Shown here in pieces: positions 7,631-46,430 of a stretch of 64,000 bases of DNA. The position numbers and the translations under genes are program-made. Below the pieces are notes generated by a model, which searched no databases, was not told the DNA's origin, and saw only the letters and a program-made list of their open reading frames with translations. Where the stretch lies: positions 2,445,501-2,509,500 of the forward strand of contig NC_014365.1 of assembly GCF_000143965.1 (NCBI RefSeq), given 5' to 3'. The stretch is from Desulfarculus baarsii DSM 2075. GTDB taxonomy: Bacteria; Desulfobacterota; Desulfarculia; Desulfarculales; Desulfarculaceae. Each line of letters opens with the position of its first letter. Position 1 is the stretch's first letter.

Positions 7631-7801
7631 ATGAAGCAAACGCGTCATTTCATCGTCTGCCCCAAGCGCTCTGGCCAACACCGCATCAGCGTCGAGTTGT
7701 GCCCGGCCTGCAAACACGCCCGCCGTTGCCCGGCCTGGGCCAGCTATCGCTGCCCGCCGTTGTTCGCCGGCCTGTTCGACAAACCCCAGCCACAAAAATA
7801 G
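7631..7801 (+). CDS. Small cysteine-rich (zinc-ribbon-like) protein
   Basis: A 56-aa reading frame below usual gene-finder limits. It begins MKQTRHFIVCPKRSGQHR and contains VELCPACKHARRCPAW followed by a further SYRCPP, giving five Cys in CP and CPxC contexts. That pattern suggests one structural zinc site. There is only a weak ribosome site (TAGGG) before the ATG. It lies directly after the tandem repeats at 7481-7606 and converges on the HAD hydrolase gene, with seven bases between stops. Coding status rests on the coherent Cys pattern and an unbroken frame to a natural stop; transcription could be limited by the terminators just upstream unless it has its own promoter. Confidence 0.5.
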   Translation: MKQTRHFIVCPKRSGQHRISVELCPACKHARRCPAWASYRCPPLFAGLFDKPQPQK

Positions 7802-7809
7802 CCGCGGCC

Positions 7810-8454
7810 TCAGCCCAAACCCAACAGCGGCGGGATCTCGGCCATGGCCTCGGCGTGGGCCCAGGCCCGCAAGGTTCTGTCGCGGAAGGCGACCATGGCC
7901 ACGCCCGCGTCCAGGCATAACGCCTCGTCCACGCTGGAGTCGCCCACGTAGACCACCTGGCCGCGCGGCAAGGCCAGGCGCTCCAGGGTGTAGTCCATGA
8001 AGCGGGCGTCGGGCTTGGCCACGCCGGCGGTGGTGGGGGTGACCACCAGCTCGAAGTAATCGCTGAGGCGCAGCTCGTCCAGGGCCAACCTGGCGCTGGA
8101 GATGCGGTTGGTGGCCACGGCCAGGCGAAAACGGCGGCCCAGGGCTTGCAACGTCTCGTGCACGCCGGGAAACAGCTTGAGCCTGGCCACGAAACTTTGA
8201 ATGTCCAGGTTGCGGCAAAATTCCAGGGCTTTTTTGAACTGGGGCCCCTCGCCGACCAGGGCCCGCAACGCGCCGTGGACGCTCTCGCGGTGGACCACGC
8301 CCTTGAGGTGCTCGGGCACCGGCGGGTGACCCAGGCTGGCCATGATGTGGTCGTAAAAGGCGACGTTGTATTCGAACGAATCGAACAACACGCCGTCCAG
8401 GTCAAAAATCACCGCGGCCAGACGCGCGAGGTCTGGCGAGGTCGCTTGAGGCAT
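7810..8454 (-). CDS. HAD-superfamily hydrolase (phosphoglycolate-phosphatase-like)
   Basis: A 214-aa cytosolic phosphatase. The four HAD motifs are in order: motif I AVIFDLDGVLFDSF with the nucleophile Asp, motif II VATNRISSAR, motif III Lys in GVAKPDARF, and motif IV VYVGDSSVDEAL. A helical C1-type cap lies between motifs I and II (residues about 25-90), as in beta-phosphoglucomutase and Gph-like enzymes. The substrate is probably a small phosphorylated sugar or glycolate, but the cap residues do not decide it. It is the last leftward gene before the qrc terminator and seems to be its own transcription unit. Confidence 0.9.
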   Translation of the reverse strand: MPQATSPDLARLAAVIFDLDGVLFDSFEYNVAFYDHIMASLGHPPVPEHLKGVVHRESVHGALRALVGEGPQFKKALEFCRNLDIQSFVARLKLFPGVHETLQALGRRFRLAVATNRISSARLALDELRLSDYFELVVTPTTAGVAKPDARFMDYTLERLALPRGQVVYVGDSSVDEALCLDAGVAMVAFRDRTLRAWAHAEAMAEIPPLLGLG

Positions 8455-35106: not shown

Positions 35107-35183
35107 GTCCTCGTAGCTCAGTAGGATAGAGCGACGGCCTCCTAAGCCGTAGGCCGCCCGTTCGATTCGGGCCGGGGACACCA
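35107..35183 (+). tRNA. tRNA-Arg (CCT)
   Basis: The cloverleaf folds: acceptor GTCCTCG with CGGGGAC, D arm TAGCTCAGTAGGATAGAGC, anticodon stem ACGGC/GCCGT around CTCCTAA giving anticodon CCT, TpsiC arm CCGTTCGATTCGGG, and an encoded CCA end at 35181-35183. The 3' half is the insertion site of the mobile element that follows, and it stays intact. Confidence 0.95.
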
Positions 35184-35186
35184 ACG
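35139..35186. repeat. attL, 48-bp core repeat
   Basis: The sequence starting CTCCTAAGCC and ending CACCAACG lies within the tRNA 3' half and three bases beyond its CCA. An identical copy is at 44967-45014, and the flanks differ beyond both ends. Confidence 0.93.
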
Positions 35187-35187
35187 A

Positions 35188-36381
35188 TTACAAGGGGTTA
35201 GCTTCGGCTGGCCCCTTTTGCATTGGGTCAGGGTGCGTATAGGGTGCGGCGGGGTGCGTGAAAAGGCTGGGCGTAAGGCTGTGATTATCCAGTTTATCCA
35301 CAGCGTTACGGTTGCCGTCCGGGGCCAAGTGACCGTAGGTGTCAACCGTTAAACTGATGCTGCAATGCCCAAGTTGGTCCCTGACGTAGGCCAGACTTTC
35401 GCCGTTTTGAATCAACAAACTGGCGAAGGTATGGCGCAGGTCGTGAATGCGGACACGGCGCAAGCCGGCATACTCAAGGGCCTTGTACCAAATCCGATTG
35501 CGAAAGTGGTAATCGTGGACGGGCTTGCCTTCAGCGCTGAGAAAAACCCTGTCCGGCACCTTTCCCCAGCCTTTGGCCAGGGCCTCGCGTTTGCGCCGCG
35601 CTCGTAGGTCAAGCAGCACGGCGGCAAGCTGGCGACTCATGTCAACCCGCCGCCCCTTGCCCGACTTCGGCGTTTCCATTCGTTCGCGGCTCACGCCGCG
35701 CCGGATCATGATGAAGCCGCCCCGGAAGTCAATATCTCCCCATTCCAGGCCCCGCGCCTCGCCAAGACGCATGCCCGTTCTGGCCAGCGTCAAAATCATG
35801 GGGAACGCATTAGGGAACCTGTCCCTGACCACCTCAAGCAGATGGTCAAGCTCTTGCGTGGTTAGCGGCTCTATGTCGGCTTTGCGGTCCTTGATCCTGA
35901 TAACGCCCCGCCCCATTCGCTGGCCGGGGTTGTGGGCGATGTAGCCGGCTTCAACGGCGCGGGTCATCACGCCCGAGATCACGTTCAGCATGTGCCGCAC
36001 CGTCGAACCAGCCAGGCCAGATTTCCCTTTCTGCAACAGAAAATCCTTGATCATCAAGCGCGTGATTTGGTCCACGGGCTTTGAGCCAAAACGGCGCAAG
36101 ATATGGTTCGCCAACAATCGTTGGTAGTCCTTCAACGTGCTGGCCTTGCAGGTGGCCGGCACGGTCAAGGCAATCCATTCCTTGGCGAGTTCGCCGAACG
36201 TCGGCATGGCCTCATCTTCGACGATGAACTTACCAGACGCCAACGCGGCCTCGATCTTGCGCGCCGCTTCCTTGGCGGCCTTTTTGTCGCCCACCAACTT
36301 TGACTTGCGCTTGCCGTCGTGGTTGACGAAAACCCACCACGCGCCGCTTCCTTTGACCTTTTCTCTGACTGTCACTCCCAT
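35188..36381 (-). CDS. int: Tyrosine recombinase (integrase)
   Basis: A 397-aa phage-type integrase. It begins with an AP2-like/arm-binding segment (GVTVREKVKGSGAWWVFVN), then a core-binding helix domain (FGELAKEWIALTV), then a catalytic domain with R205 (TGMRLGEA), K near 242, H313xxR316 (HDLRHTFASLLIQ), H339 (LGHCSISLT) and the nucleophile Y349 (DTYGHL). All catalytic residues are present. AAGGAGG lies a few bases before the ATG at 36381. Its stop codon falls immediately after attL. It is the last gene of the element's leftward array, separated from the phage-like genes by a repeat-rich stretch. Confidence 0.95.
   Translation of the reverse strand: MGVTVREKVKGSGAWWVFVNHDGKRKSKLVGDKKAAKEAARKIEAALASGKFIVEDEAMPTFGELAKEWIALTVPATCKASTLKDYQRLLANHILRRFGSKPVDQITRLMIKDFLLQKGKSGLAGSTVRHMLNVISGVMTRAVEAGYIAHNPGQRMGRGVIRIKDRKADIEPLTTQELDHLLEVVRDRFPNAFPMILTLARTGMRLGEARGLEWGDIDFRGGFIMIRRGVSRERMETPKSGKGRRVDMSRQLAAVLLDLRARRKREALAKGWGKVPDRVFLSAEGKPVHDYHFRNRIWYKALEYAGLRRVRIHDLRHTFASLLIQNGESLAYVRDQLGHCSISLTVDTYGHLAPDGNRNAVDKLDNHSLTPSLFTHPAAPYTHPDPMQKGPAEANPL
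35192..35219 (+). terminator. Element-borne terminator behind tRNA-Arg
   Basis: AAGGGGTTAGC pairs with GCTGGCCCCTT over a TTCG tetraloop, followed by TTGC. It lies just inside attL and can end the tRNA transcript in place of the chromosomal terminator displaced beyond attR (45017-45054). It also overlaps the integrase 3' end, read on the other strand. Confidence 0.7.
35231..35257 (+). promoter_or_regulatory. Triplet of GGGTGC repeats near attL (candidate integrase arm sites)
   Basis: GGGTGC occurs at 35231, 35242 and 35252 (steps of 11 and 10 bp), 45 bp inside attL and within the 3' end of the integrase gene. The same triplet with the same steps is present near attR (44874-44900). Confidence 0.65.
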
Positions 36382-36474
36382 AGGCCCTCCTTGTTTTGCG
36401 AATCGCCGCCGATATGTCGGCAATTTATTTTACCACGTTTCGGCCGCAAGTTCGTCGCGGGATTGACGGCCAAC

Positions 36475-36500
36475 ACCTTCAGGCAAATTTGCCTGAAGGT
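36475..36500. repeat. Perfect 26-bp palindrome, core GCAAATTTGC
   Basis: Begins ACCTTCAG and is fully self-complementary around AAATTT. It is the first of four palindromes in the element that share the core but have different arms. Confidence 0.9.
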
Positions 36501-36529
36501 CTGTTCGCGTGCCTTGCCTTTCCTTGGCC

Positions 36530-36561
36530 AATAGGTTCCGGCAAATTTGCCGGAACCTATT
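36530..36561. repeat. Perfect 32-bp palindrome, core GCAAATTTGC
   Basis: Arms AATAGGTTCCG and CGGAACCTATT flank the common core; no mismatch over 32 bp. The arms differ completely from those of the two neighbouring palindromes. Confidence 0.9.
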
Positions 36562-36601
36562 CTCGCCCTGGGCCGCAAGTTCGTCGCGGGATTGACGGCC
36601 G

Positions 36602-36631
36602 ACCGCTTCAGGCAAATTTGCCTGAAGCGGT
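36602..36631. repeat. Perfect 30-bp palindrome, core GCAAATTTGC
   Basis: Arms ACCGCTTCAG and CTGAAGCGGT around the core. It shares TTCAG with the first palindrome but differs further out, where each side changes together with the other. Confidence 0.9.
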
Positions 36632-37004
36632 TTTGCGCCAAGCGCGCCCGGCCCGCTGGTCGCTTGCCTTTCCTTCGCCCTGGCCCTCACCACGTCTTCG
36701 AGTTGCAACGCCAGTTGCGCCCGTTGCATGTCGTTCAGGTTGCGCCGGCCAAGCTGGCCTGGGCCGACTTCCAAATAGCCACCACAAGCCACGATCTTTC
36801 CTCGGCAATGGTTTGACAGCGGCCAAACGCCGATCGTCGCTCTACGTGTCAATTTGGAAGCCTCACAGCATATACTCATGATTAACGTCACCAGTTTTGT
36901 TTAAATGCGGCGGTTGTGGCCCTTGTTTGCCCCATGGAAGCACCAGCCGGGAAAGGGAGGACCACTTGAACGACGCCGCCGCCCGCCGTTGGGAGAATCC
37001 CGGC

Positions 37005-38147
37005 TTACAAAACGTTCAGCGAGTCGCCCTCTGGATGCCGGGGCAAATTCTCGCGTTGGCGAATCTCGTTGGCGGTCATGACGCCCGCCTGGCGGGCAAT
37101 CTGGTAGCTTTGGAAGCGCTCAAGCGTTCCGGCCCGCAAAAGGTTGGCCGCGTTGTGCTCAAAGTAAAGGCCGGCCGCCCGCTCGCCTTCGGTGAGCAAC
37201 TGCAAGTTGAACCGGGCCTCAAGGCGGGTCAGCCAAGGCGTCAAGCTCAGAGTCAAAAATTCGTGGGCAAGCTGTTCAACATTATTGAAGCTCATGCGGT
37301 CCAAATGGCCCAGCAGGTGGACGGGCACGCGGAAGCATCGGGCAATTTCCTCAAGCGACCATTTCCACGTGGCCAGGGTTTCCGCGTCCTCGGAGCTTAG
37401 GCCGATCTGCTCGTAGGAAAGCCCGCCGTCCAGAATAACGGTCCGCCCCGCGCCGGCCGGGCCGCTGAAGCGCCGTTCCCAATCATCGCGCAGGCGCGCC
37501 GCCGCCTCTGGCGTAACGTCGCGGTCAGTCTTGAGCACGCCAGACGGCCGCGCCTGTTGCCGGAACAAAGCCGTGGTGTAGGCCCCCAGCACGTGAGGCA
37601 ACTCCATTGCCCGGCGCAAGGTGGCAATTGGCGAGACGCCGACAACGCCGTCGGTGGATAAGCCGCGAATGTGCAACACCTCGTCCTGGCCGTAGACCAC
37701 GGCCCGCTTTTCGTCGGCGTAGCGGTAGAGGATGCTGTTGTCCGGCTGGGGTTCGACCGCCACACAATCGGGCCGCAAAGGCCACAGGGCCACCACCTGG
37801 CCGGCCTGGCGCTCGACAAACACAAAGGCGTTGCCGCGCAGACACAAGCAGACCATCAAGAACTCGCGGAATTCGCCGCCGGTCTGGTAGGTATTTGGCC
37901 GGTGGCGCATCAGGTCTTGCAAAACATGATCGTCGGCCCGCTCGCGCCCGCCGTCGGCCCGCTTGCGGTACAGGTCCAAAGGCATGGCCGCGATGGTTTC
38001 CGACAGCACGCGAACGCATGCATATACCGTCGGAATGCCCAGGGCCATGTTTTCCGAGTAGCCCTCGAAGCTCTCACCGCGTAGCCACGTGGACGTGGGC
38101 GACTCAGCCTTGTAGCGCCGCATGCCCAGCTTCTGCAACAAACCCAT
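37005..38147 (-). CDS. Phage portal protein (HK97 type)
   Basis: A 380-aa portal that forms the dodecameric DNA-entry ring of the capsid. It has family segments VYACVRVLSETIAAMPLDLYRK, YADEKRAVVYGQDEVLHIRG, GVSPIATLRRAMELPHVLGAY and the C-terminal LLTEGERAAGLYFEHNAANLLRAGTLERFQSYQIA. Its size is near the minimum for HK97-type portals, so the wing and stem are compact. It follows the capsid gene by 50 bp, which holds a strong hairpin at 38165-38188. No connector or tail genes follow. Confidence 0.93.
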   Translation of the reverse strand: MGLLQKLGMRRYKAESPTSTWLRGESFEGYSENMALGIPTVYACVRVLSETIAAMPLDLYRKRADGGRERADDHVLQDLMRHRPNTYQTGGEFREFLMVCLCLRGNAFVFVERQAGQVVALWPLRPDCVAVEPQPDNSILYRYADEKRAVVYGQDEVLHIRGLSTDGVVGVSPIATLRRAMELPHVLGAYTTALFRQQARPSGVLKTDRDVTPEAAARLRDDWERRFSGPAGAGRTVILDGGLSYEQIGLSSEDAETLATWKWSLEEIARCFRVPVHLLGHLDRMSFNNVEQLAHEFLTLSLTPWLTRLEARFNLQLLTEGERAAGLYFEHNAANLLRAGTLERFQSYQIARQAGVMTANEIRQRENLPRHPEGDSLNVL

Positions 38148-38164
38148 GGTTCATCCTCCAGGGC

Positions 38165-38188
38165 GGGGCCGCCCCGAAAGGCGGCCCC
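38165..38188. terminator. Hairpin between capsid and portal genes
   Basis: GGGGCCGCC pairs with GGCGGCCCC across CCGAAA. It lacks a clear T run on the minus strand, so it may reduce read-through or be processed rather than terminate fully. A nearly identical hairpin lies near the element's right end (44910-44931). Confidence 0.5.
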
Positions 38189-38197
38189 TTCCACGAT

Positions 38198-39913
38198 TTA
38201 GCGGGCGGCCAAGGTCACGAAGTCGGCAACCTCGGTCACGCCGTCGGCCAGGGTCAGCAGGCCGTTTTTGATGGGCATGCCGTCAAGGCGCACGGTGGCC
38301 CGGAAGGCCACGTGGTCGCTGGTGAAGTAAATGTCGCGGCTGGCCTCGAGGCGCAATTCCGAGCGGATGCACAAGGCGTAGGCGCTGGGGTTGACCAGCA
38401 TCACGTCGCCCTTGTCGCCCAGCACGCTGGTGTGCTCGCTCCAGATGATGGGATGGCCAAGCAGGTTCTGGCCCTTGCCACCGGTGGACACGTCGGACCA
38501 GACGTTGCTTCCGCCGGTCCCCACGGTCTGGGCCATGGTGTAGACCTGGCCCTTGAGCGAAGGCGACATAAGCCAGACGGCCTTGCCTTCGGCGGCCGGG
38601 GCCAGCTTGGCGGCCATGTTGACGGCGTTTTCCCAAAGGAAGGTGTCGTTGCTCTGGGCCGACTCCTTGGCCACGGTGGCCAGGGCGTCAGAGTTGAAAA
38701 TGGCCAACGGCTTGCCAACGCCATTGCCGGCCAGGATGCAATTGTGGTCGATGGCCCACCGGATTTCGGCGGCCAACGTCTCGCGGATGAAGGCCTCGGC
38801 GTTGGGCGCATCCTCCATAAATTCGCGCGTGGCCTTCAAAAGCAGAGTCAGCTTGTGGGGATTGAAGGTCATGGCCCGAACCTGAATGTCGTCCGGGGTC
38901 ATTTCGGCCCCCTCGGCGGTCCAGGTGGCCACCAGCCCGCCACGATCGGCCGAATGGTCAGAGTCGGAGATGGCCGGCACGGTCAGGCTGGCCGCGTTGG
39001 TCCGGTACACCTTGCACCGGCTGGCCAGGATGCTTTGCTCCAGGGCCATGTCCAGGATGGGCGCGCCATAGGCCTGGGGAATCAGGAAGCCGCCGTCCAC
39101 GCCCGAGACGCTGTTCATGGCGCGAGTCTGGAGCCGCTCGTCACGGCCGCCCATGACGGCGCGGACGAATTCGCCAAGCCCCCGGAATCCGTGGCTCTCG
39201 CTGGCGGCCGCCCGATCTTCCACCACGATACGCGGCCGGGGTTTGTCGGCGGCCGGGCGCAGCTTGGCGGCCGCGTCCAGCATCTCCATGCGGCGGGTAA
39301 GTGTGTCGGCCTCTTCGCGCAGGCGAGCAAAAACCACGCCCTCATCAGGCGTCAGCGAGTCGCGGGCGGCCAGGGTTTCGATTTCGTCGGCCAACTGGGC
39401 CTGTCGTTGCAGCATGTCGTTCTTGTCCATTTTCTTCATTCCTTCCAAATAGTTGTAACCACGGCCAATACCAACGGTCCCATCCGCCGGCACGGCAACC
39501 AAACTGACTTCCAGCGGCCGCCACCGCACCACGCGATACCCTCCAGGCTGATTCCGGGTTTCGAGCACCTCGTAACCGATGGAGATTCCGCGCACGATGC
39601 CGGCCTTCACGTCCTCCCAAAGCTCTTTGGCCCGCCCCGTTGCGCCGAAGCGCAGCACGCCGCGAAGCTTCCCGCCGGCCAGGCGCAAGTCCTCAACCAC
39701 GCCGATGTTGACGCGGCTGGCGTCATGGCCTTCCAGCAGGGGCAGGGGAGCGCGGCTCAGGTCCACCGCCTCGGGCGTGTGCTCCAGAATCTCGTCACCA
39801 CCGCGCCGGGCCACGGGCGCTTCGCTGGAAAGGCTCGCGCCGATGCACCGCGCTTCCTCATCCGCCTTCCGGCCCAATTCCAGGCTCATTGTTCGGCTTT
39901 CCGTTGTCGCCAT
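38198..39913 (-). CDS. Fused prohead protease-major capsid protein (HK97 type)
   Basis: A 571-aa polyprotein. The N-terminal 170 residues are an HK97-type prohead protease with catalytic H63 (LLEGHDASR) and S111 (VRGISIGYEV). A linker coiled coil follows (LQRQAQLADEIETLAARDSL, the scaffold/delta domain) and then the HK97-fold capsid domain from about residue 230 (SVSGVDGGFLIPQAYGAPI, LLLKATREFMEDAPN, AIDHNCILAGNGVGKPLAIF). Separate proteases are usual; the fusion would be self-processed. AAGGAGA sits five bases before the ATG at 39913. Confidence 0.93.
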   Translation of the reverse strand: MATTESRTMSLELGRKADEEARCIGASLSSEAPVARRGGDEILEHTPEAVDLSRAPLPLLEGHDASRVNIGVVEDLRLAGGKLRGVLRFGATGRAKELWEDVKAGIVRGISIGYEVLETRNQPGGYRVVRWRPLEVSLVAVPADGTVGIGRGYNYLEGMKKMDKNDMLQRQAQLADEIETLAARDSLTPDEGVVFARLREEADTLTRRMEMLDAAAKLRPAADKPRPRIVVEDRAAASESHGFRGLGEFVRAVMGGRDERLQTRAMNSVSGVDGGFLIPQAYGAPILDMALEQSILASRCKVYRTNAASLTVPAISDSDHSADRGGLVATWTAEGAEMTPDDIQVRAMTFNPHKLTLLLKATREFMEDAPNAEAFIRETLAAEIRWAIDHNCILAGNGVGKPLAIFNSDALATVAKESAQSNDTFLWENAVNMAAKLAPAAEGKAVWLMSPSLKGQVYTMAQTVGTGGSNVWSDVSTGGKGQNLLGHPIIWSEHTSVLGDKGDVMLVNPSAYALCIRSELRLEASRDIYFTSDHVAFRATVRLDGMPIKNGLLTLADGVTEVADFVTLAAR

Positions 39914-40004
39914 CTCATCTCCTTGTTCTGAAAACAAAAGCCGGCCAGGCTTGCGCCCGCCGGCCGTCTTGCGGCTCTGTCGTTTTGGGGTTATAATTTA
40001 AGAT

Positions 40005-41627
40005 TTACACGGCAAGCAGGCCTCGTTCCAGCCATGCAGGGGGGGCCGCCGGAACCTCGGCCCGCGCGTGCAAGCCCATGGCCATGGTCAGCGCCACGGT
40101 GCCGTCAACTTTTTCCCGTGACCGCGACTTGCTTATCTTGCGCCCGCCCGCCGGGTCCGTTTCGATCACAACGTTCGAGGCGCACCACGTCAAAACAGGA
40201 TGCCCGCCATGGGCTATTTGGCGTTGCAGGATGCCAGCTTCCAGCAAGTCAACCGCCGGGGCCATGTCCTTGAAGCCCTGGCCCCACGGGGTCAACGGCA
40301 ACTCGATGCCCTCATCCGCCAGGATCACCTTCAGGTCTTCGATTCGCCACCTGTCGTAGGCCACGCCTTTCAGGTCGAACCTGGAAGCCACCTCGGCAAG
40401 GCGCATGGCGATGGCCCGTCGGTCGATGGCCCGGCCAGGCGTGGTTTCGATCAAGCCTTGGCTGGCCCAGGTCCGATATGGCACGCGGTCGTCGTCCTCG
40501 CGCTCATCCAGGTTTTCGGCCGGAACCCAAAAGAAGGGCAACACCGCGCCGCCGTCCTCGGGGAAGTAGAGCACCAGCGCCGTCAGGTCCGTGGTGGAAC
40601 CCAGGTCCAGCCCGGCCCAGCATGGCCGGCCGCGCAAAGCCTCGGGGTCAACTTCGCCCCGGCAAGCTTCCCAGTCGGCTTGGGCGATGAACCGGCCGTC
40701 CACCTCCACCGGCTGGTTAAGATAAAGGGCGCGGAACACGGTCTCTTTGGCTGGAATGCGCTTGGCTTGCGCCGCGAACTGGCGCATTTCCTCGAGCGAC
40801 CGGAAGTCGCCAAGCGCCGGGTTGCAGGCCCGCCAAACTTCCTCGCTCCAGGGGTCCGCGTCCGGCGGCGCGGCGTAGATGATCGGCAAAAACGTTTCGT
40901 CCTCGATCACGCCGTCCAGCACCTTGCGGCCGTATTCGACAAGTTCGCTCATAACGTGGTGGTGGTCGCTGGATTGCGTGGAAATGACCACCATGAGCGG
41001 CTCGCGCCTAGCGCCCGCGCCCGTGTCCAGGTTGTCAAACAAATGCCGGGTCCGCGCTTGGGCCAATTCGTCGTAGACCACGAACGATGGGGATAAGCCA
41101 TGGGCCTTGCGGTCGTCGGACGACAGCGCATGGTAGACGGAACCGGTTACGTCGTCCTCGATGGCCTTTCGGAACCGCTGGACGTTGCACCGCGCCGCGA
41201 ACTCGGGAACAGCGCCGATCACCGCTTCCATTTCCGCGAAGATGATTGACGCTTGGCCTCTGTCGGCCGCCGCGCTGTAGACCTGGCCGCGCTGTTCCGC
41301 TTCTGGCCCGATCAGGTGCGCCAGGGCCAGGGCCGCCGCCAGGGCCGTCTTGCCGTTTTTGCGGGGCAGGGTAAGCAAGGCCTTGCGCACCACGCGCCGG
41401 CCGCCCCGCGTCCGGTAGAGCGCCTTGACTATCTTCTTTTGCCAGGGCCGCAGCCGGAAGCGCCGGCCAGCGTGCATGCCGCTGGTGATGGGCAAGCTTT
41501 CCACGAAAATAATGACGCGGGCCGCCCGGCTCAGCCCCGGCCGCTCCCAAAGAAAGCAATGCGCGCCAATTTCGCGGGGCGTGTCGGCCGTTTTCAGCGG
41601 CCCGGCTTTTGGTCCACGTCGGCCCAT
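40005..41627 (-). CDS. Phage terminase large subunit
   Basis: A 540-aa packaging motor. ATPase motifs: a Walker A variant PRKNGKTALAAAL (residues 89-94) and Walker B FVVYDELAQ (D186, E187). The RNase-H-like nuclease has AGLDLGSTTDLTALVL and the C-terminal DGTVALTMAMG. The N-terminus MGRRGPKAGPLK looks like the start of P27-type small terminase proteins, and there is no separate small-terminase gene. An HNH nuclease precedes it by five bases, as in cos-type HK97 packaging systems. Confidence 0.94.
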   Translation of the reverse strand: MGRRGPKAGPLKTADTPREIGAHCFLWERPGLSRAARVIIFVESLPITSGMHAGRRFRLRPWQKKIVKALYRTRGGRRVVRKALLTLPRKNGKTALAAALALAHLIGPEAEQRGQVYSAAADRGQASIIFAEMEAVIGAVPEFAARCNVQRFRKAIEDDVTGSVYHALSSDDRKAHGLSPSFVVYDELAQARTRHLFDNLDTGAGARREPLMVVISTQSSDHHHVMSELVEYGRKVLDGVIEDETFLPIIYAAPPDADPWSEEVWRACNPALGDFRSLEEMRQFAAQAKRIPAKETVFRALYLNQPVEVDGRFIAQADWEACRGEVDPEALRGRPCWAGLDLGSTTDLTALVLYFPEDGGAVLPFFWVPAENLDEREDDDRVPYRTWASQGLIETTPGRAIDRRAIAMRLAEVASRFDLKGVAYDRWRIEDLKVILADEGIELPLTPWGQGFKDMAPAVDLLEAGILQRQIAHGGHPVLTWCASNVVIETDPAGGRKISKSRSREKVDGTVALTMAMGLHARAEVPAAPPAWLERGLLAV

Positions 41628-41632
41628 GCTAA

Positions 41633-42004
41633 CTAACTCTCTTCTGCGATGGGGCACACCGGTCCGTGGTTCTCAGCTCCTGAAGATTTTTCCCCACCGT
41701 TCGCCCACCAGTGCTTGGGGTCCATCGGCCAGCCGGTGGCAGGGTCAACGGCCCGATCATGCTTGCGTCGCCAGCCGCCGCCGTCCTCGCGGTTGGTCTT
41801 TTTGCTGTGGCACGAGTGACAGAGCGGTTGCAAGTTATTGCAATCCCAGGGCATTCCCCCATCGGCAACAGGCTTGATGTGATCGACGTCGGTTGCGGCG
41901 ACGACCTTCCCGGCCCGCCGACACTCCCGGCACAATGGTTCGCTTCGGAGCACCTGAAGCCGCAAGCGCCGCCAGCGAGATGTTGAGTATGGCCAGTCAG
42001 ACAT
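41633..42004 (-). CDS. HNH endonuclease
   Basis: A 123-aa HNH nuclease. The motif is complete: CRECRRAGKVVAATDVDHIKPVADGG then NLQPLCHSCHSKKTNREDGG. Two CxxC pairs bind zinc. HNH proteins next to large terminases in HK97-type phages and satellites are needed for cos cleavage. The ATG at 42004 overlaps the PrimPol stop by one base (TAATG), a coupling typical of compact phage operons. Confidence 0.93.
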   Translation of the reverse strand: MSDWPYSTSRWRRLRLQVLRSEPLCRECRRAGKVVAATDVDHIKPVADGGMPWDCNNLQPLCHSCHSKKTNREDGGGWRRKHDRAVDPATGWPMDPKHWWANGGEKSSGAENHGPVCPIAEES

Positions 42005-43884
42005 TACGCGGCCCTCCCGAGTGTCGCCTCGTACTTCGTGGCGTAGGCGGCCCGCTCGCGGTCGTCCAGTCGCACCCAATCAGATACGGGCTCCAAGCGC
42101 CAGCCGTGGTGTATCACAAAGTGCCGCTCCAGACCGTTTGGGTTGCGGCCGGGGTAGGCTTTGGCTTTGACAATTTTCAGGGCGCACACTGTGCGGCCTC
42201 GGGCGTGAGTTAGCACGTCCAGTGCCATGTAAAGGCGGCTTTTCTCAGCCGTCGCCTCGCCGCCGCGCCCAAAGGTTGCGCCGGTTTTTTTTTGCAGGCA
42301 GACGAATGCAACGCCGTTGCCCAGCGCGTCATAGACGCCCCTAATATCGGAAGCAATCTTGAAGTATTCGCCGTCCCGCTCCTCAAGGTAGTCGACGACG
42401 GTCAACCCGTCGCGGTTGTGGGCGGCGATGGCGTCGTCAAAGCCGCTGGCGAGAGACGCGGCGCGGACGGCTCGCCAATGGTCAAGGGGGTCGCCGAAAG
42501 CCCCAACGCGCTGGCGATACTCTTGTGGCCCCATCTCCGACATGCAATAAAGCAACTCCTGGCGGCCGATGTTGTCGCGCAGGATGTTGAGCGCCAGGGC
42601 CGTTTTTCCTGCATTGGTCTGGCCGGCCAGCACAACGATCGACTTGGGGGGGAGGCTCACCATCTGGTCAAGGCCCAGGGGCAATGCCAGCCCAAATGGC
42701 TGGCCGTCTGTGCTGGCCAGGTCAACGAACTCCAAATGGCTAGCCAAAATATGGAACCGCCCCGCCTGGCGGGGATCTCTCTTAATCTTCTTTTCTTCTA
42801 TAAGGCGTGTCAGGACCATCGACCGGTTTTTTCGGTCGCGCCGATCGACTAGTCCGAACTCCCGGTCAACGTCGGCCGTCGTGAACGAACCTGTTGAATT
42901 TGCTACCCATTCGCGGATTTCAGCCGCAAGGTTTCCGCCGAATCTAACGGAATCACCCCGTCCACGCTGGGCCGTATCCTGTCCACACGTGTCCCCAGGT
43001 GTCCACACGTGTCCACGGGTGTCCACACCTGTCCACACCTGTCCACAGGTGTGGACATTGTCCACATTTCGGGGGTCCCTGATCCCGGCGGCCAGCCCCG
43101 ACGCCACCGTGGCCGCCACTTCGCGCTGGCCGAGTCCCAGGGCCAGGCCGGCCCCGATCAAAGCGGCCCTGACTCCATCCTCGGCCAGCAGGCCGGCCCC
43201 GATCAGCTGGCCGAGGGCGAAGGAAGAATCGTTGATTTGCCGGTTTCTCGCCCCCTGGCCAGCCAGTGCGATTTTTGTCAGTTCATCGGCCAGGGCGTGT
43301 CGCCCGTAGCGGGAACGGGAGTCGCGGCCCTTTTCCCGTTCGCGCAAATTTGCGCGAACGGGGTCTGGCGCAACATCGCCCTGCTTCAGGCTGGCAATCT
43401 GCCTTTCCTTCGCCCTGGCCCTCACCACGTCTTCGAGTTGCGCCGGTAATTCCGGTGGTGCGCAATCCCAGGGGGCGACCAGCCATTCACGGCCTGGCCC
43501 CGGCGGGGCCACGACGTATCCGCCCTCGGCGCGCACGTCCACGGCGGGCATGACGCCCACGGCGTTTTTCATACCCTCGCGGTGGGCAAAGTAGTAATGT
43601 CGCCCCCGTGGCGTGGTGGCAATGGGCATCTCCAGCCCATCGGGCAAAAGGGCCTCAACACGACTAATCGCCTCGGAATTGTCGGCGTCAATGACCAGTA
43701 GGTTGCTAACCTTTCCCGTCACAATACCTACCATCGCGCCGGGTTTGCCAAACCAGTCGGCGAGCGCGCCGGCCTCGGGCCGGCGGGTCTGGTATTCGGC
43801 CCACGGGCGAAGGGGGCGCTTGTCCGCGCCCACGGGGATCGCCGCCCAGCCCAGGCTGGCGTATCTTTGCGCGGCCTCAATCAT
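42004..43884 (-). CDS. PrimPol-helicase replication protein
   Basis: A 626-aa replication initiator. The N-terminal domain is an archaeo-eukaryotic-type PrimPol (YASLGWAAIPVGADKRPLRPW, NLLVIDADNSEAI with catalytic Asp, IATTPRGRHYYF, VDVRAEGGYVVAPPG). The C-terminal domain is a RepA/DnaB-like ATPase with Walker A VVLAGQTNAGKTALAL (near residue 415). The linker region (about 275-310) is encoded by the iteron array at 42979-43066 and by a palindrome near residue 178. Its start overlaps the preceding 47-aa gene by four bases. It probably recognises its own iterons and loads replication at them. Confidence 0.88.
   Translation of the reverse strand: MIEAAQRYASLGWAAIPVGADKRPLRPWAEYQTRRPEAGALADWFGKPGAMVGIVTGKVSNLLVIDADNSEAISRVEALLPDGLEMPIATTPRGRHYYFAHREGMKNAVGVMPAVDVRAEGGYVVAPPGPGREWLVAPWDCAPPELPAQLEDVVRARAKERQIASLKQGDVAPDPVRANLREREKGRDSRSRYGRHALADELTKIALAGQGARNRQINDSSFALGQLIGAGLLAEDGVRAALIGAGLALGLGQREVAATVASGLAAGIRDPRNVDNVHTCGQVWTGVDTRGHVWTPGDTCGQDTAQRGRGDSVRFGGNLAAEIREWVANSTGSFTTADVDREFGLVDRRDRKNRSMVLTRLIEEKKIKRDPRQAGRFHILASHLEFVDLASTDGQPFGLALPLGLDQMVSLPPKSIVVLAGQTNAGKTALALNILRDNIGRQELLYCMSEMGPQEYRQRVGAFGDPLDHWRAVRAASLASGFDDAIAAHNRDGLTVVDYLEERDGEYFKIASDIRGVYDALGNGVAFVCLQKKTGATFGRGGEATAEKSRLYMALDVLTHARGRTVCALKIVKAKAYPGRNPNGLERHFVIHHGWRLEPVSDWVRLDDRERAAYATKYEATLGRAA
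42979..43066. promoter_or_regulatory. 10-bp iteron array with DnaA-box-like sites: candidate replication origin
   Basis: GTCCAC (one copy GTCCCC) repeats at 42981, 42991, 43001, 43011, 43021, 43031 and 43041, exactly 10 bp apart. It is followed by an inverted GTGGAC at 43051 and TTGTCCACA at 43058-43066, which is the DnaA box of high-GC bacteria. Ten is not a multiple of three, so protein coding does not explain the periodicity. It sits in the linker of the PrimPol-helicase gene. Confidence 0.7.
43335..43362. repeat. Perfect 28-bp palindrome, core GCAAATTTGC
   Basis: Arms CCCGTTCGC and GCGAACGGG around the core, inside the PrimPol gene and 6.7 kb from the other three copies. Arms again differ from the others. 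Confidence 0.9.
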
Positions 43885-44024
43885 CGCTCGCCCTCCTTGA
43901 CCAGCAGCCGATCCAAGGCCAGGCTGGCCTGGCGGTCAAAGGGCCGATCGACGGCCCGCTCCAGCCACCGGCGGCGCAGGCGGCCAAAAAAACGCTTGAC
44001 TTTTGCCCAGCGTTCGGCTATCAT
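43881..44024 (-). CDS. Small basic protein of the satellite
   Basis: A 47-aa, strongly basic protein (IAERWAKVKRFFGRLRRRWLERAV). AAGGA lies eight bases before the ATG, and its stop overlaps the PrimPol start by four bases, so it is likely translated and coupled. An amphipathic helix with Arg clusters suggests nucleic-acid binding. No family is recognised. Confidence 0.6.
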   Translation of the reverse strand: MIAERWAKVKRFFGRLRRRWLERAVDRPFDRQASLALDRLLVKEGER

Positions 44025-44084
44025 ATTGTTATCCTTTCTTTTTGATCTGTGGGGCCGCTGGTGTTGGCGCACCAAAGGCCCCGT

Positions 44085-44318
44085 TCATTTTCGGCCCAGC
44101 CCGGCCAGGACTTCGTTGACAATTTTGTCCGTCCGCTGGTGGTCAACCGCGTGGCCGGCCAGCCAAGCATCCAGGGCCTCCCGCTTGATCAACACCGCGC
44201 CGCCAGCCACGCGGCTATGCGGAAGCCCAGCCGCCAGCCAGCTCCGCATGGTGCGCAAGCTAACGTCGGCCAGTTCAGCGGCCGACCTGGCCCGCAGCCA
44301 AGCCCGTTCAGATGCAAG
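44085..44318 (-). CDS. Helix-turn-helix DNA-binding protein (AlpA/excisionase type)
   Basis: A 77-aa protein with one winged helix-turn-helix: SAAELADVSLRTMRSWLAAGLPHSRVAGGAVLIKREALDAWL, the pattern of AlpA/Xis-like proteins that bind att or promoter DNA. GGAGG lies eight bases before the ATG at 44318. It is the second of two such regulators and lies behind an attenuator-like hairpin (44343-44373). Confidence 0.82.
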   Translation of the reverse strand, partial: LASERAWLRARSAAELADVSLRTMRSWLAAGLPHSRVAGGAVLIKREALDAWLAGHAVDHQRTDKIVNEVLAGLGRK

Positions 44319-44342
44319 CATCCTTCGCGCCTCCAAAACAGA

Positions 44343-44373
44343 AAACGCCGCCCGGTTGCCCGAGACGGCGTTT
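44343..44373 (-). terminator. Hairpin/attenuator between the two regulator genes
   Basis: AAACGCCG pairs with CGGCGTTT across a 15-base loop. On the minus strand it is followed by TTTTCTGTTTT. Nineteen bases of its left half (CGCCGCCCGGTTGCCCGAG) are also present at 44793-44811. Confidence 0.65.
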
Positions 44374-44398
44374 CGCAAAAGGTTGTGGTGTCAGGCGG

Positions 44399-44623
44399 TC
44401 AGCGGCCGGTGATGGCCTCGAACTCGCGCATGGCCGCGCCCTTCGTCATGGCCCGCCGGTTGCGCTGGACGAACTCGACCAGCGCGGCGCGCTCGTAGAC
44501 GACGCGCCCGCCCAGGCCGACAAAAGCCGGGCCGCCGCCCCGGCTTCGCCAAGTCGCCAAGGTGGCCGGGCTAAGCCTCAAAACCTCGGCGGCCTCGCCT
44601 TCGGTGAGCAACTCTAGGTCCAC
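44399..44623 (-). CDS. Helix-turn-helix DNA-binding protein (MerR/AlpA-like)
   Basis: A 74-aa protein with one HTH (LTEGEAAEVLRLSPATLATWRSRGGGPAFVGLGGRVVYERAALVEF), the AlpA/phage-excisionase-like class that activates satellite or prophage genes or directs excision. The GTG at 44623 has a perfect AAGGAGG six bases upstream. It is the first gene of the element's leftward array, behind a good promoter. In PICIs the AlpA homologue is the master switch; here that role is inference. Confidence 0.8.
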   Translation of the reverse strand: MDLELLTEGEAAEVLRLSPATLATWRSRGGGPAFVGLGGRVVYERAALVEFVQRNRRAMTKGAAMREFEAITGR

Positions 44624-44716
44624 GGAAAACCTCCTTTTTTGGGCAAAACGCAAAAAGGCCGCAGCATCCGCCACGGCCTCGATCAGTCTCTCGCACACGT
44701 TTTCCAATTGTAGCAA

Positions 44717-44745
44717 AATGTACACTACATATTGTTTGTTGTCAA
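44717..44745 (-). promoter_or_regulatory. Sigma70-type promoter of the element
   Basis: On the minus strand TTGACA (44740-44745), exactly 17 bp, then TACATT (44717-44722), about 95 bases before the first HTH gene. Tandem GAGCGATTGC copies and a GCGAG/CTCGC inverted repeat lie just upstream (44747-44775), suggesting regulator binding. This is the best promoter match in the window. Confidence 0.78.
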
Positions 44746-44873
44746 CGAGCGATTGCGAGCGATTGCGAGTCTCGCAAAAAAGCAAGCGAAAGCGCCGCCC
44801 GGTTGCCCGAGGTGTGAAACGTCACAGCAACATGTTTTGACCATCTGGTGTCGCTATGCAAAGTGTGACATTT

Positions 44874-44900
44874 GGGTGCGCCTGGGGTGCAAACGGGTGC
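44874..44900 (+). promoter_or_regulatory. Triplet of GGGTGC repeats near attR (candidate integrase arm sites)
   Basis: GGGTGC occurs at 44874, 44885 and 44895 (steps of 11 and 10 bp), the same count, orientation and spacing as the triplet near attL. Confidence 0.65.
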
Positions 44901-44909
44901 AAAAAAGAT

Positions 44910-44931
44910 GGGCCGCCCCGGAAGGCGGCCC
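44910..44931 (-). terminator. Terminator at the right end of the element
   Basis: GGGCCGCC pairs with GGCGGCCC across CCGGAA; on the minus strand it is followed by ATCTTTTTTGC. It would block chromosomal transcription from entering the element. Confidence 0.75.
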
Positions 44932-44966
44932 TAATGATTTCAACTACTTAGCTTCTATCATGCCCA

Positions 44967-45014
44967 CTCCTAAGCCGTAGGCCGCCCGTTCGATTCGGGC
45001 CGGGGACACCAACG
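44967..45014. repeat. attR, 48-bp core repeat
   Basis: Identical to 35139-35186. It lies 9,828 bp from attL and contains the tRNA-Arg 3' half but not the 5' half. Confidence 0.93.
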
Positions 45015-45016
45015 CA

Positions 45017-45054
45017 AAAAAGGGGTCGGGCCCCGAGGCCCAGCCCCTTTTGTC
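45017..45054. terminator. Original chromosomal terminator for tRNA-Arg
   Basis: AAAAAGGGGTCGGGCC pairs with GGCCCAGCCCCTTTT across a short loop and is followed by GTC. It lies just beyond attR, so before insertion it would have followed tRNA-Arg directly. Confidence 0.7.
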
Positions 45055-45218: not shown

Positions 45219-46430
45219 ATGTGCTGATCTAGTAATGACCTGACAGTCGACCACGTAGAGGAAGTGGTCATGCCGCCCTTGGTTGGGGTAGGTTTGTAGT
45301 TGCGAAACTCGAACAAACCTCAACACAGGAGGGCAACATGACCACGGAGAAGAAGGTAGCACGAAGGAAGCTGAGTCTGCTAGAGCTTGCTGGGGAATTG
45401 AGCAACGTCAGCCGGGCCTGCAAACTGATGGGCTACTCGCGGCAGCAGTTTTACGAGATTCGGCGCAATTTCCAGACCTACGGCGCACAGGGCCTTGTGG
45501 ACCGTTTGCCCGGCCCCAAGGGGCCGCATCCCAATCGTGTGGAAGCGGAGGTTGAGGCGGCGATCATGGCTTACAGCCTGGAGTATCCGACCCACGGAGC
45601 GCTTCGCGTGTCGCAGCAATTGGCCCTTCGCGGCGTGCAAGTGAGTTCCGGCGGCGTGCGAGGCGTGTGGAGTCGCCACGAGATGCTCACGCGGCACGAG
45701 CGTCTTTTGCGTCTCGAGCAATCGGTTCGCGCCCAGGACATTCAACTCAGCGACGAGCAGATTCGGGCTTTGGAGCGCTTCAGCCCGGAGTTTCGCGACC
45801 GCCACATCGAGGCCCGGCACACCGGGGCCCTGGTGGCGGTGGACACGTTTTTCGTTGGCGCGCTCAAGGGCGTGGGCAAGGTGTATCTACAATCGGTCAT
45901 CGACTGCCACAGCCGCCACGCCTGGGGTCGCCTGTACACCAGCAAGCTTCCGGTCACGGCGGTGCATGTGCTCAACGAGGAAGTGCTGCCGTGCTTTGAG
46001 GCCCACGACGCGGTGATTGAGACGGTGCTTTCGGACAATGGGCGAGAGTTTTGCGGCCGGCCAGACCAGCATCCGTATGAGCTGTTTCTGCAGCTTGAGG
46101 GGATCGAACACCGCACCACCAGGGTGCGTCGGCCTCAGAGCAATGGCTTCGTGGAACGGCTTCACCGGACGCTCTTGGACGAGCATTTCCGGATCAAGGG
46201 CCGTCAGAAATGGTATGAAACCTTGGATGAGATGCAGGCCGACTTGGATGAGTATCTGCGCCATTACAACCATGAGCGGGCGCACCAGGGCCGGAACATG
46301 AACGGCAGGACGCCGAGTCAGGCTTTCCTGGAGGGCCTGCCCGGGCGTAAGAAGCCCAAGGAAAAGGCGTCCCAAAAGGCCGCCTAAAAATCACCCCGCC
46401 AGGGGCGGCAGTGTCAGGTAAATACTATAT
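45219..46430 (+). mobile_element. IS481-type insertion sequence
   Basis: About 1.2 kb. It is flanked by imperfect 13-bp direct repeats (CTGAATGTTCTGG at 45206-45218, CTGTACATTCTGG at 46431-46443). Imperfect terminal inverted repeats contain ACCTGACA (near 45238 and 46411-46429, 15 of 19 bases alike). It lies within the lipoprotein-sorting gene. End positions are approximate because the outermost bases do not match. Confidence 0.8.
45338..46387 (+). CDS. IS481-family DDE transposase
   Basis: A 349-aa transposase with an N-terminal HTH (GELSNVSRACKLMGYSRQQFYEIRRNF) and a retroviral-integrase-type catalytic core. DDE residues are in LVAVDTFFVG, ETVLSDNGREF and NGFVERLHRTLLDE. AGGAGGG precedes the ATG. 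The frame is intact, so the element could still be mobile. Confidence 0.94.
   Translation: MTTEKKVARRKLSLLELAGELSNVSRACKLMGYSRQQFYEIRRNFQTYGAQGLVDRLPGPKGPHPNRVEAEVEAAIMAYSLEYPTHGALRVSQQLALRGVQVSSGGVRGVWSRHEMLTRHERLLRLEQSVRAQDIQLSDEQIRALERFSPEFRDRHIEARHTGALVAVDTFFVGALKGVGKVYLQSVIDCHSRHAWGRLYTSKLPVTAVHVLNEEVLPCFEAHDAVIETVLSDNGREFCGRPDQHPYELFLQLEGIEHRTTRVRRPQSNGFVERLHRTLLDEHFRIKGRQKWYETLDEMQADLDEYLRHYNHERAHQGRNMNGRTPSQAFLEGLPGRKKPKEKASQKAA

Follow-up and report, generated by a model that had tools for sequence, protein, structure and literature searches.

The window analyzed in this study is a 64-kb stretch of the chromosome of the sulfate-reducing bacterium Desulfarculus baarsii DSM 2075 (positions 2,445,501-2,509,500 of a single 3,655,731-bp contig). 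It contains a 9.8-kb unit that is probably an integrative capsid-forming satellite of phages, replicating from iterons in its PrimPol gene, packaging approximately 10 kb of DNA with its own large terminase (TerL), and needing the tail, connectors, and lysis functions of a helper. The sequence shows the unit to be integrated in the 3' half of a tRNA-Arg(CCT) gene, where it adjoins a gene for a tyrosine recombinase, and to encode a replication protein, a packaging motor, and head components of its own. Rather than a one-off deletion, it is a member of a recurring family of approximately 10-kb elements, which probably borrow tails from true phages.

Boundaries and gene content of the unit

The length of the unit, 9,828 bp, is the spacing of direct repeats at 35139-35186 and 44967-45014. 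These 48 bp are exact, as the preliminary description of this DNA had reported, and lie within a longer repeat (35139-35198 and 44967-45026; 60 nt, 93% match). The left repeat is the 3' half of tRNA-Arg(CCT) (35107-35183, plus strand; the attachment site attB), the sole tRNA gene found by ARAGORN in the window. A whole-chromosome search returned an exact second half-copy of this gene only at the far end of the unit. The preliminary description had proposed a comparison with empty sites in relatives. Empty-looking tRNA-Arg(CCT) genes with a single copy of the segment were found in G045, G046, G048, G049, and other genomes, and a partial second copy was found in G044 and G050. Thus, other elements occupy this gene as well. 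The occupant in G044 is an 8.2-kb helicase-TerL-capsid unit (L038:8966-17194) that also carries AlpA and a gp10-like gene; a portal was not seen among its open reading frames (ORFs) read.

Every gene between the repeats lies on the minus strand, as had been described, and all recognised genes are intact and in tight order. Transcription would begin with an AlpA-like HTH_17 regulator with a helix-turn-helix (HTH; 44399-44785, likely start about 44623; PF12728, 1.3e-11), which is followed by an HTH_17/excisionase-like protein (44085-44378; PF12728, 2.6e-7; TIGR01764, 5.9e-7) and a 64-amino acid (aa) frame to which family searches assigned no family (43881-44075). The next gene encodes a PrimPol-helicase replication protein (42004-43884), in which a Prim-Pol domain (PF09250, 3.4e-22) is joined to a RecA/DnaB-like helicase half (phrog_243, DnaB-like). 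It precedes an HNH endonuclease (41633-42079, likely start at MSDWPYS, about 42004; PF01844, 4.8e-12) and TerL (40005-41657), in which ATPase and nuclease parts (PF03354 and PF20441, and the alignment) follow an N-terminal MGRRGPKAGP extension from a likely ATG start about 41627.

The head genes begin with a protease-capsid fusion (38198-39937, likely ATG start about 39913), in which an HK97-fold capsid (PF05065, 1.5e-40) stands behind a Peptidase_S78 protease (PF04586, 6e-6). The fusion matches phrog_4523, 'major head and protease protein' (4e-36), and has a fused homolog in UBA5758. An HK97-type portal (37005-38147; PF04860, 2e-109; TIGR01537, 1.3e-78), a gap with a 153-aa frame, and the tyrosine integrase (35188-36423, likely start at the ATG of MGVTVREKVK, about 36381; PF00589, 6.9e-25; phrog_1, 3.5e-77) complete the order. 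The Pfam and PHROG assignments thus bear out the functions named in the preliminary description.

To keep small genes from being overlooked, stops were read as X when all three minus-strand frames of the unit were searched with PHROGs for missing functions. This search recovered no family of tail, lysis, or connector proteins, so the tail and lysis genes of a complete tailed prophage are lacking here, including those whose presence the preliminary description had regarded as fatal to a satellite. Small terminase (TerS) names appeared in these frames only as cross-matches of HTH (E 0.048) or HNH proteins. Moreover, head-tail connectors gave no PHROG or Pfam match in the unit, and hidden Markov models (HMMs) of gp6 and gp7 built from relatives had no match in its frames down to 30 aa. 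The absences of tail, connector, lysis, and separate TerS genes claimed previously were therefore upheld. Because no such tail, connector, or lysis gene was recognised, a helper must lend the tail and lysis functions and probably the adaptors; the dependence on the tail of a helper is our reading of the gene content.

A recurring family of approximately 10-kb units

A cassette of a relative, UBA5758 (L057), kept the same order at 38% (HNH), 54% (TerL), 34% (protease-capsid fusion), and 39% (portal) aa identity. This unit measures 10,350 bp between 48-bp repeats in tRNA-Arg(CCG), has its integrase at the opposite end and a replication gene of another kind, and showed no recognised TerS, connector, or tail gene. 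The TerL alignment search yielded 114 loci (34 from genomes and 80 from IMG/VR), with TerL identities of 61% in Salinisphaera, 53% in Brevundimonas, and 44-76% in IMG/VR; many of the 80 IMG/VR loci lie on contigs of 9-11 kb. In 38 of the 114 loci, the order was TerL-capsid-protease-portal, whereas the usual order is TerL-portal-protease-capsid. The gene set and order of the window unit recur in Salinisphaera, Brevundimonas, and many IMG/VR contigs. Thus, the layout is present in Desulfobacterota, as first described, but it is not private to that group. Similarly, the promoter-distal integrase is correct for the window unit, but integrase position varies within the family. The fusion of capsid and protease is shared with UBA5758, but the protease is a separate gene in most members.

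The att-bounded units of this order (n = 12) span about 9.3-10.7 kb: 9,828 bp in the window, 10,350 bp in UBA5758, 10,341 bp in Salinisphaera, 10,517 bp in Brevundimonas, and 9,345-10,717 bp in eight IMG/VR contigs, although three att matches in this set are short (15-19 bp) and constitute weaker evidence. Two further IMG/VR contigs are circular units of 10,516 and 10,657 bp, closed by exact repeats of 98 and 127 bp at their ends. The mean of these 14 units was 10,184 bp, with a standard deviation of 398 bp, and the window unit shares this size near 10 kb. The att repeats of the family lie in many different tRNA genes, and its distribution is patchy. In 12 such loci and a second unit of D. baarsii, element 2, 102 leftover ORFs were assigned by Pfam mainly to replication, HTH, and integrase families, together with two gp6 connectors; no tail, lysis, or TerS family was found by Pfam, and PHROG agreed among the 25 of 57 families listed. 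A full-length parent prophage, the other finding that the preliminary description had considered damaging, was not found; the nearest relatives likewise lack tails and measure about 10 kb.

The suggestion that most relatives lack connectors was rejected, since ORFs of at least 45 aa miss small gp6 genes that HMMs find on stop-to-stop frames. A gp6-like adaptor occurs in most alphaproteobacterial-type members, and gp7 occurs in some. The same HMMs gave no match in the window unit, element 2, L116, L117, or L119. If the absence of connectors in this clade is real, the helper would supply the adaptors as well as the tail.

The tree of 113 TerLs contained a clade of six, comprising the window unit, element 2, and four IMG/VR contigs, with 99% support in the Shimodaira-Hasegawa-like approximate likelihood ratio test. 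Loci with the capsid directly after TerL were strongly clustered (10 changes versus 38 in shuffles). They are not one clade, as they enclose a group whose portal is distant from TerL and whose contigs reach 72 kb, and the quick model and long branches leave the deep order unsure. Among 50,697 phage records, TerL identity topped out near 41%, and most phage matches began only at about residue 42-45. The N-terminal 40 residues, which include MGxRGP, are a typical trait of the satellite clade, and the alignment and tree place the window unit among TerLs with this N-terminal G-x-R-G motif. The conserved start reads MGxRGPxAxP (window about 41590-41627) and is absent from most phage TerLs; by eye only, the MGRRGPK extension resembles the start of P27-type TerS.

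A second unit in the same genome

Element 2 (L005), a unit of the same kind as that in the window (element 1), lies at 1.93 Mb of the same chromosome in a tRNA-Leu gene. DNA identity between the two was 97% for PrimPol, 90% for HNH, and 90% for TerL. The corresponding ratios of nonsynonymous to synonymous substitution (dN/dS) were 0.39, 0.34, and 0.27, which indicates that the PrimPol-HNH-TerL genes are under purifying selection. The head genes of element 2 form a different module (capsid, separate protease, and portal), placed before PrimPol, and its integrase is unlike that of element 1. Thus, one packaging-replication module has been joined to two unlike head modules. The head module of element 2 was also found on a contig of the same bacterial family (G057; capsid 44%, protease 75%, portal 56%). 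Element 2 harbours an insertion sequence (IS), and a frameshift splits its portal gene. One transposase gene occurs both just beyond the right att of element 1 (45338-46387) and inside element 2 (L005:11498-12547).

Iterons and proposed mechanism

Within the PrimPol gene, Tandem Repeats Finder detected a 10-bp iteron repeated 7.3 times in tandem (42980-43052), a proposed replication origin. The unit, TGTCCACACG, stands in seven copies between the primase and helicase halves. Element 2 has an array of 11 copies (L005 about 7738-7843), and iteron-like arrays of quite different units lie in the same linker in L117:833-930, L123:3064-3179, and the more distant L036:13688-13769. Such arrays were present in all five of the full-length PrimPol homologs examined. 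The iterons may accordingly be an origin lying inside the gene for its own initiator, an arrangement known from lambda O.

On induction, the AlpA-like HTH proteins would be the likely switch and excision factor, and the unit would leave the chromosome as a circle. The PrimPol-helicase would start replication at the iterons in its own gene, while, on the portal, the protease-capsid fusion would assemble and mature a small HK97-type shell. The shell would then receive about one 10-kb genome through cutting and pumping by HNH and TerL. Finally, a co-resident or infecting tailed phage would lend its tail, lysis functions, and probably head-tail adaptors. A size of approximately 10 kb is within what has been predicted for T=3 capsids (PMC7762592).

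Comparison with known systems

The systems closest in way of life are the capsid-forming phage-inducible chromosomal islands (cf-PICIs). Like cf-PICIs such as EcCIEDL933, the unit is integrated site-specifically between att repeats, encodes its own major capsid, maturation protease (here fused to the capsid), portal, TerL, and HNH endonuclease, has AlpA-like regulators, and has no tail genes. Unlike them, the window unit has no recognised TerS or connectors, both of which are included in the cf-PICI part list quoted in PMC10690885. It is also smaller (9.8 kb versus a published mean of 14 kb; PMC10803314), lies on one strand, and is set apart by the protease-capsid fusion, the TerL-capsid-protease-portal order, and the iterons in PrimPol. 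The preliminary description of a cf-PICI-like satellite with its own layout is therefore supported, and, as measured against that part list, the unit 'works like' a cf-PICI rather than 'is' one. Its genes suggest a variant of capsid-forming satellites that would share the cf-PICI way of life.

The Streptomyces phage satellites MulchRoom and MiniFlayer (PMC10690885) likewise carry a full head and packaging set, and MulchRoom particles bear a tail seemingly from the helper (PMC10690885). However, they have TerS, a scaffold, an adaptor, and terminal repeats with no obvious replicase (PMC10690885), whereas the window unit supplies a primase-helicase of its own and has its integrase at a tRNA gene. 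Compared by description only, mycobacterial phiRv1/phiRv2-type elements and other candidate PICIs (PMC10654092) are also small integrated elements with capsid genes, with tRNA genes as the sites of those that have tyrosine integrases (PMC10654092), but their hosts differ. HK97-like tailed phages (HK544 and others) share a TerL about 40% identical, the HK97-type portal, the S78 protease, and the capsid family with the unit. Unlike the unit, they encode TerS, tail, and lysis proteins in genomes of around 40 kb; in HK544, TerS and TerL are followed by the portal.

Alternative explanations

A decayed HK97-type prophage that has lost its late genes and is now dying was considered unlikely. Phage homologs exist for all head genes, and the split portal and IS of element 2 speak for it. 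Against it, no recognised gene of the window unit is broken, the genes stand in tight order on one strand with dN/dS below 0.4, and many genera contain the same reduced set in units of this size, among which att repeats fit the small size and two forms are circular. The head-gene order is also unlike that of HK97 phages. Lower still is the probability that we assign to a self-sufficient minimal virus that releases tail-less capsids slowly and needs no helper. The unit does have everything for a filled head, and bradyrhizobial cultures commonly contain virions that appear to lack tails (PMC11599138), but a portal with HK97-type packaging normally serves a tail, and no lysis or entry gene was recognised. 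Moreover, many relatives have gp6 and some have gp7 adaptors, whose known job is tail joining. A domesticated gene-transfer agent or other capsid used by the host is hardly credible. A tail-poor capsid operon under purifying selection would suit it, but the integrase, the att sites in many tRNA genes, and the own replication genes indicate a mobile lifestyle, and the distribution is patchy, with two different copies in one genome.

One reading narrower than the satellite explanation, and compatible with it, is a true cf-PICI with TerS and connectors too divergent to see. The remaining cf-PICI parts are present, many relatives have gp6 (some of about 90 aa), and a TerS PHROG has a weak match (4e-4) in the HTH protein encoded at 44085-44378. 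This protein matches excisionases better, however, the gp6/gp7 HMMs found nothing in the window clade, and the genes of the unit all lie on one strand; we therefore regard this form as doubtful, though worth keeping in view. Somewhat better placed, but still tentative, is the idea of a separate size-locked family of approximately 10-kb satellites in Desulfobacterota, Alpha-, and Gammaproteobacteria that arose apart from cf-PICIs. Such satellites would be TerS-free, with the DNA-recognition part perhaps transferred to TerL as its MGxRGP extension, and would have a T=3-sized HK97 capsid, with the window clade taking connectors from its helper.

Several points weigh against a helper-dependent capsid-forming satellite. 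For the window unit, induction, particles, packaged DNA, and transfer are predictions, and the circular contigs could derive from excised DNA rather than particles. Without a recognisable TerS or connector, the start of packaging and the docking of a tail are unexplained. At least one copy looks dead, given the split portal and IS of element 2, and the family is rare in Desulfobacterota (TerL identity of at least 50% in 3 of 395 sampled genomes). In addition, the helper was not identified. Tape-measure genes at 1.757 and 2.008 Mb indicate that tailed-phage regions are present in the host genome (one Mu-like by eye, the other unclassified), but neither gave a close relative of the portal or TerL of the unit. 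In E. coli, none of the 17 prophages resident in the same host mobilises the cf-PICI EcCIEDL933 (PMC11389934); thus, a missing fitting resident helper would be no refutation here.

If the unit is a capsid-forming satellite, it would extend such satellites beyond the hosts usually named, which are mostly Enterobacteriaceae, several Firmicutes groups, and Pasteurella (PMC10803314). It would also show the minimal needs of a capsid-forming satellite, about ten genes. As a T=3 HK97-type architecture has not yet been seen (PMC7762592), the approximately 10-kb elements are concrete candidates for it. Moreover, with connector-bearing and connector-free members in one family, what a head must bring for a foreign tail becomes directly testable.

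Other observations

A literature search found no paper on phages or prophages of D. baarsii. Two further TerL loci of its genome, elements 3 and 4 (L068, 2.836-2.856 Mb; L069, 2.877-2.897 Mb), were considered as tailed prophages; this was rejected, as the stretches read are tail-less cf-PICI-like units with no tail genes. Both carry TerS, TerL, portal, protease, capsid, gp6, and gp7. The head genes are followed by an AlpA-like gene and defence genes, namely a type I restriction-modification methylase in one and a C5 methylase (DISARM- or Druantia-type profile) with large neighbours in the other. Like the window unit, they have HK97-type heads and are tail-less in the regions read; unlike it, they have TerS, gp6, gp7, and the canonical portal-protease-capsid order, and they therefore look more like classical cf-PICIs.

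Two other units were observed in tRNA genes. In G305, a 9.3-kb unit (L063:10292-19628) with att in tRNA-Arg(TCT) contains a primase-like gene, AlpA, a small TerS-like frame, and a capsid; BLAST recognised neither TerL nor a portal in it. In G061, a 14-kb unit in tRNA-Lys (L036) has a related PrimPol (37%) and an S78 protease-like gene; it was rejected as a family member because it holds a long tape-measure-like gene.

The gap between portal and integrase (36430-36891) is not featureless. It holds the 153-aa ORF (minus strand), which family searches assigned to no family and which partly resembles the PrimPol segment behind the primase domain (51% over 76 aa), and three long perfect palindromes with the core GCAAATTTGC (36475-36500, 26 bp; 36530-36561, 32 bp; 36602-36631, 30 bp). 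A fourth, of 28 bp, lies inside the PrimPol gene (43335-43362). The pattern GGCAAATTTGCC occurred four times in the 3.66-Mb genome, three times in the window unit and once in element 2, while a control pattern occurred zero times. All five GCAAATTTGC-core sites (four in the window unit and one at L005:7456) are perfect palindromes of 26-32 bp. Their arms vary between copies yet remain complementary, and the PrimPol palindrome shows compensatory changes between elements 1 and 2.

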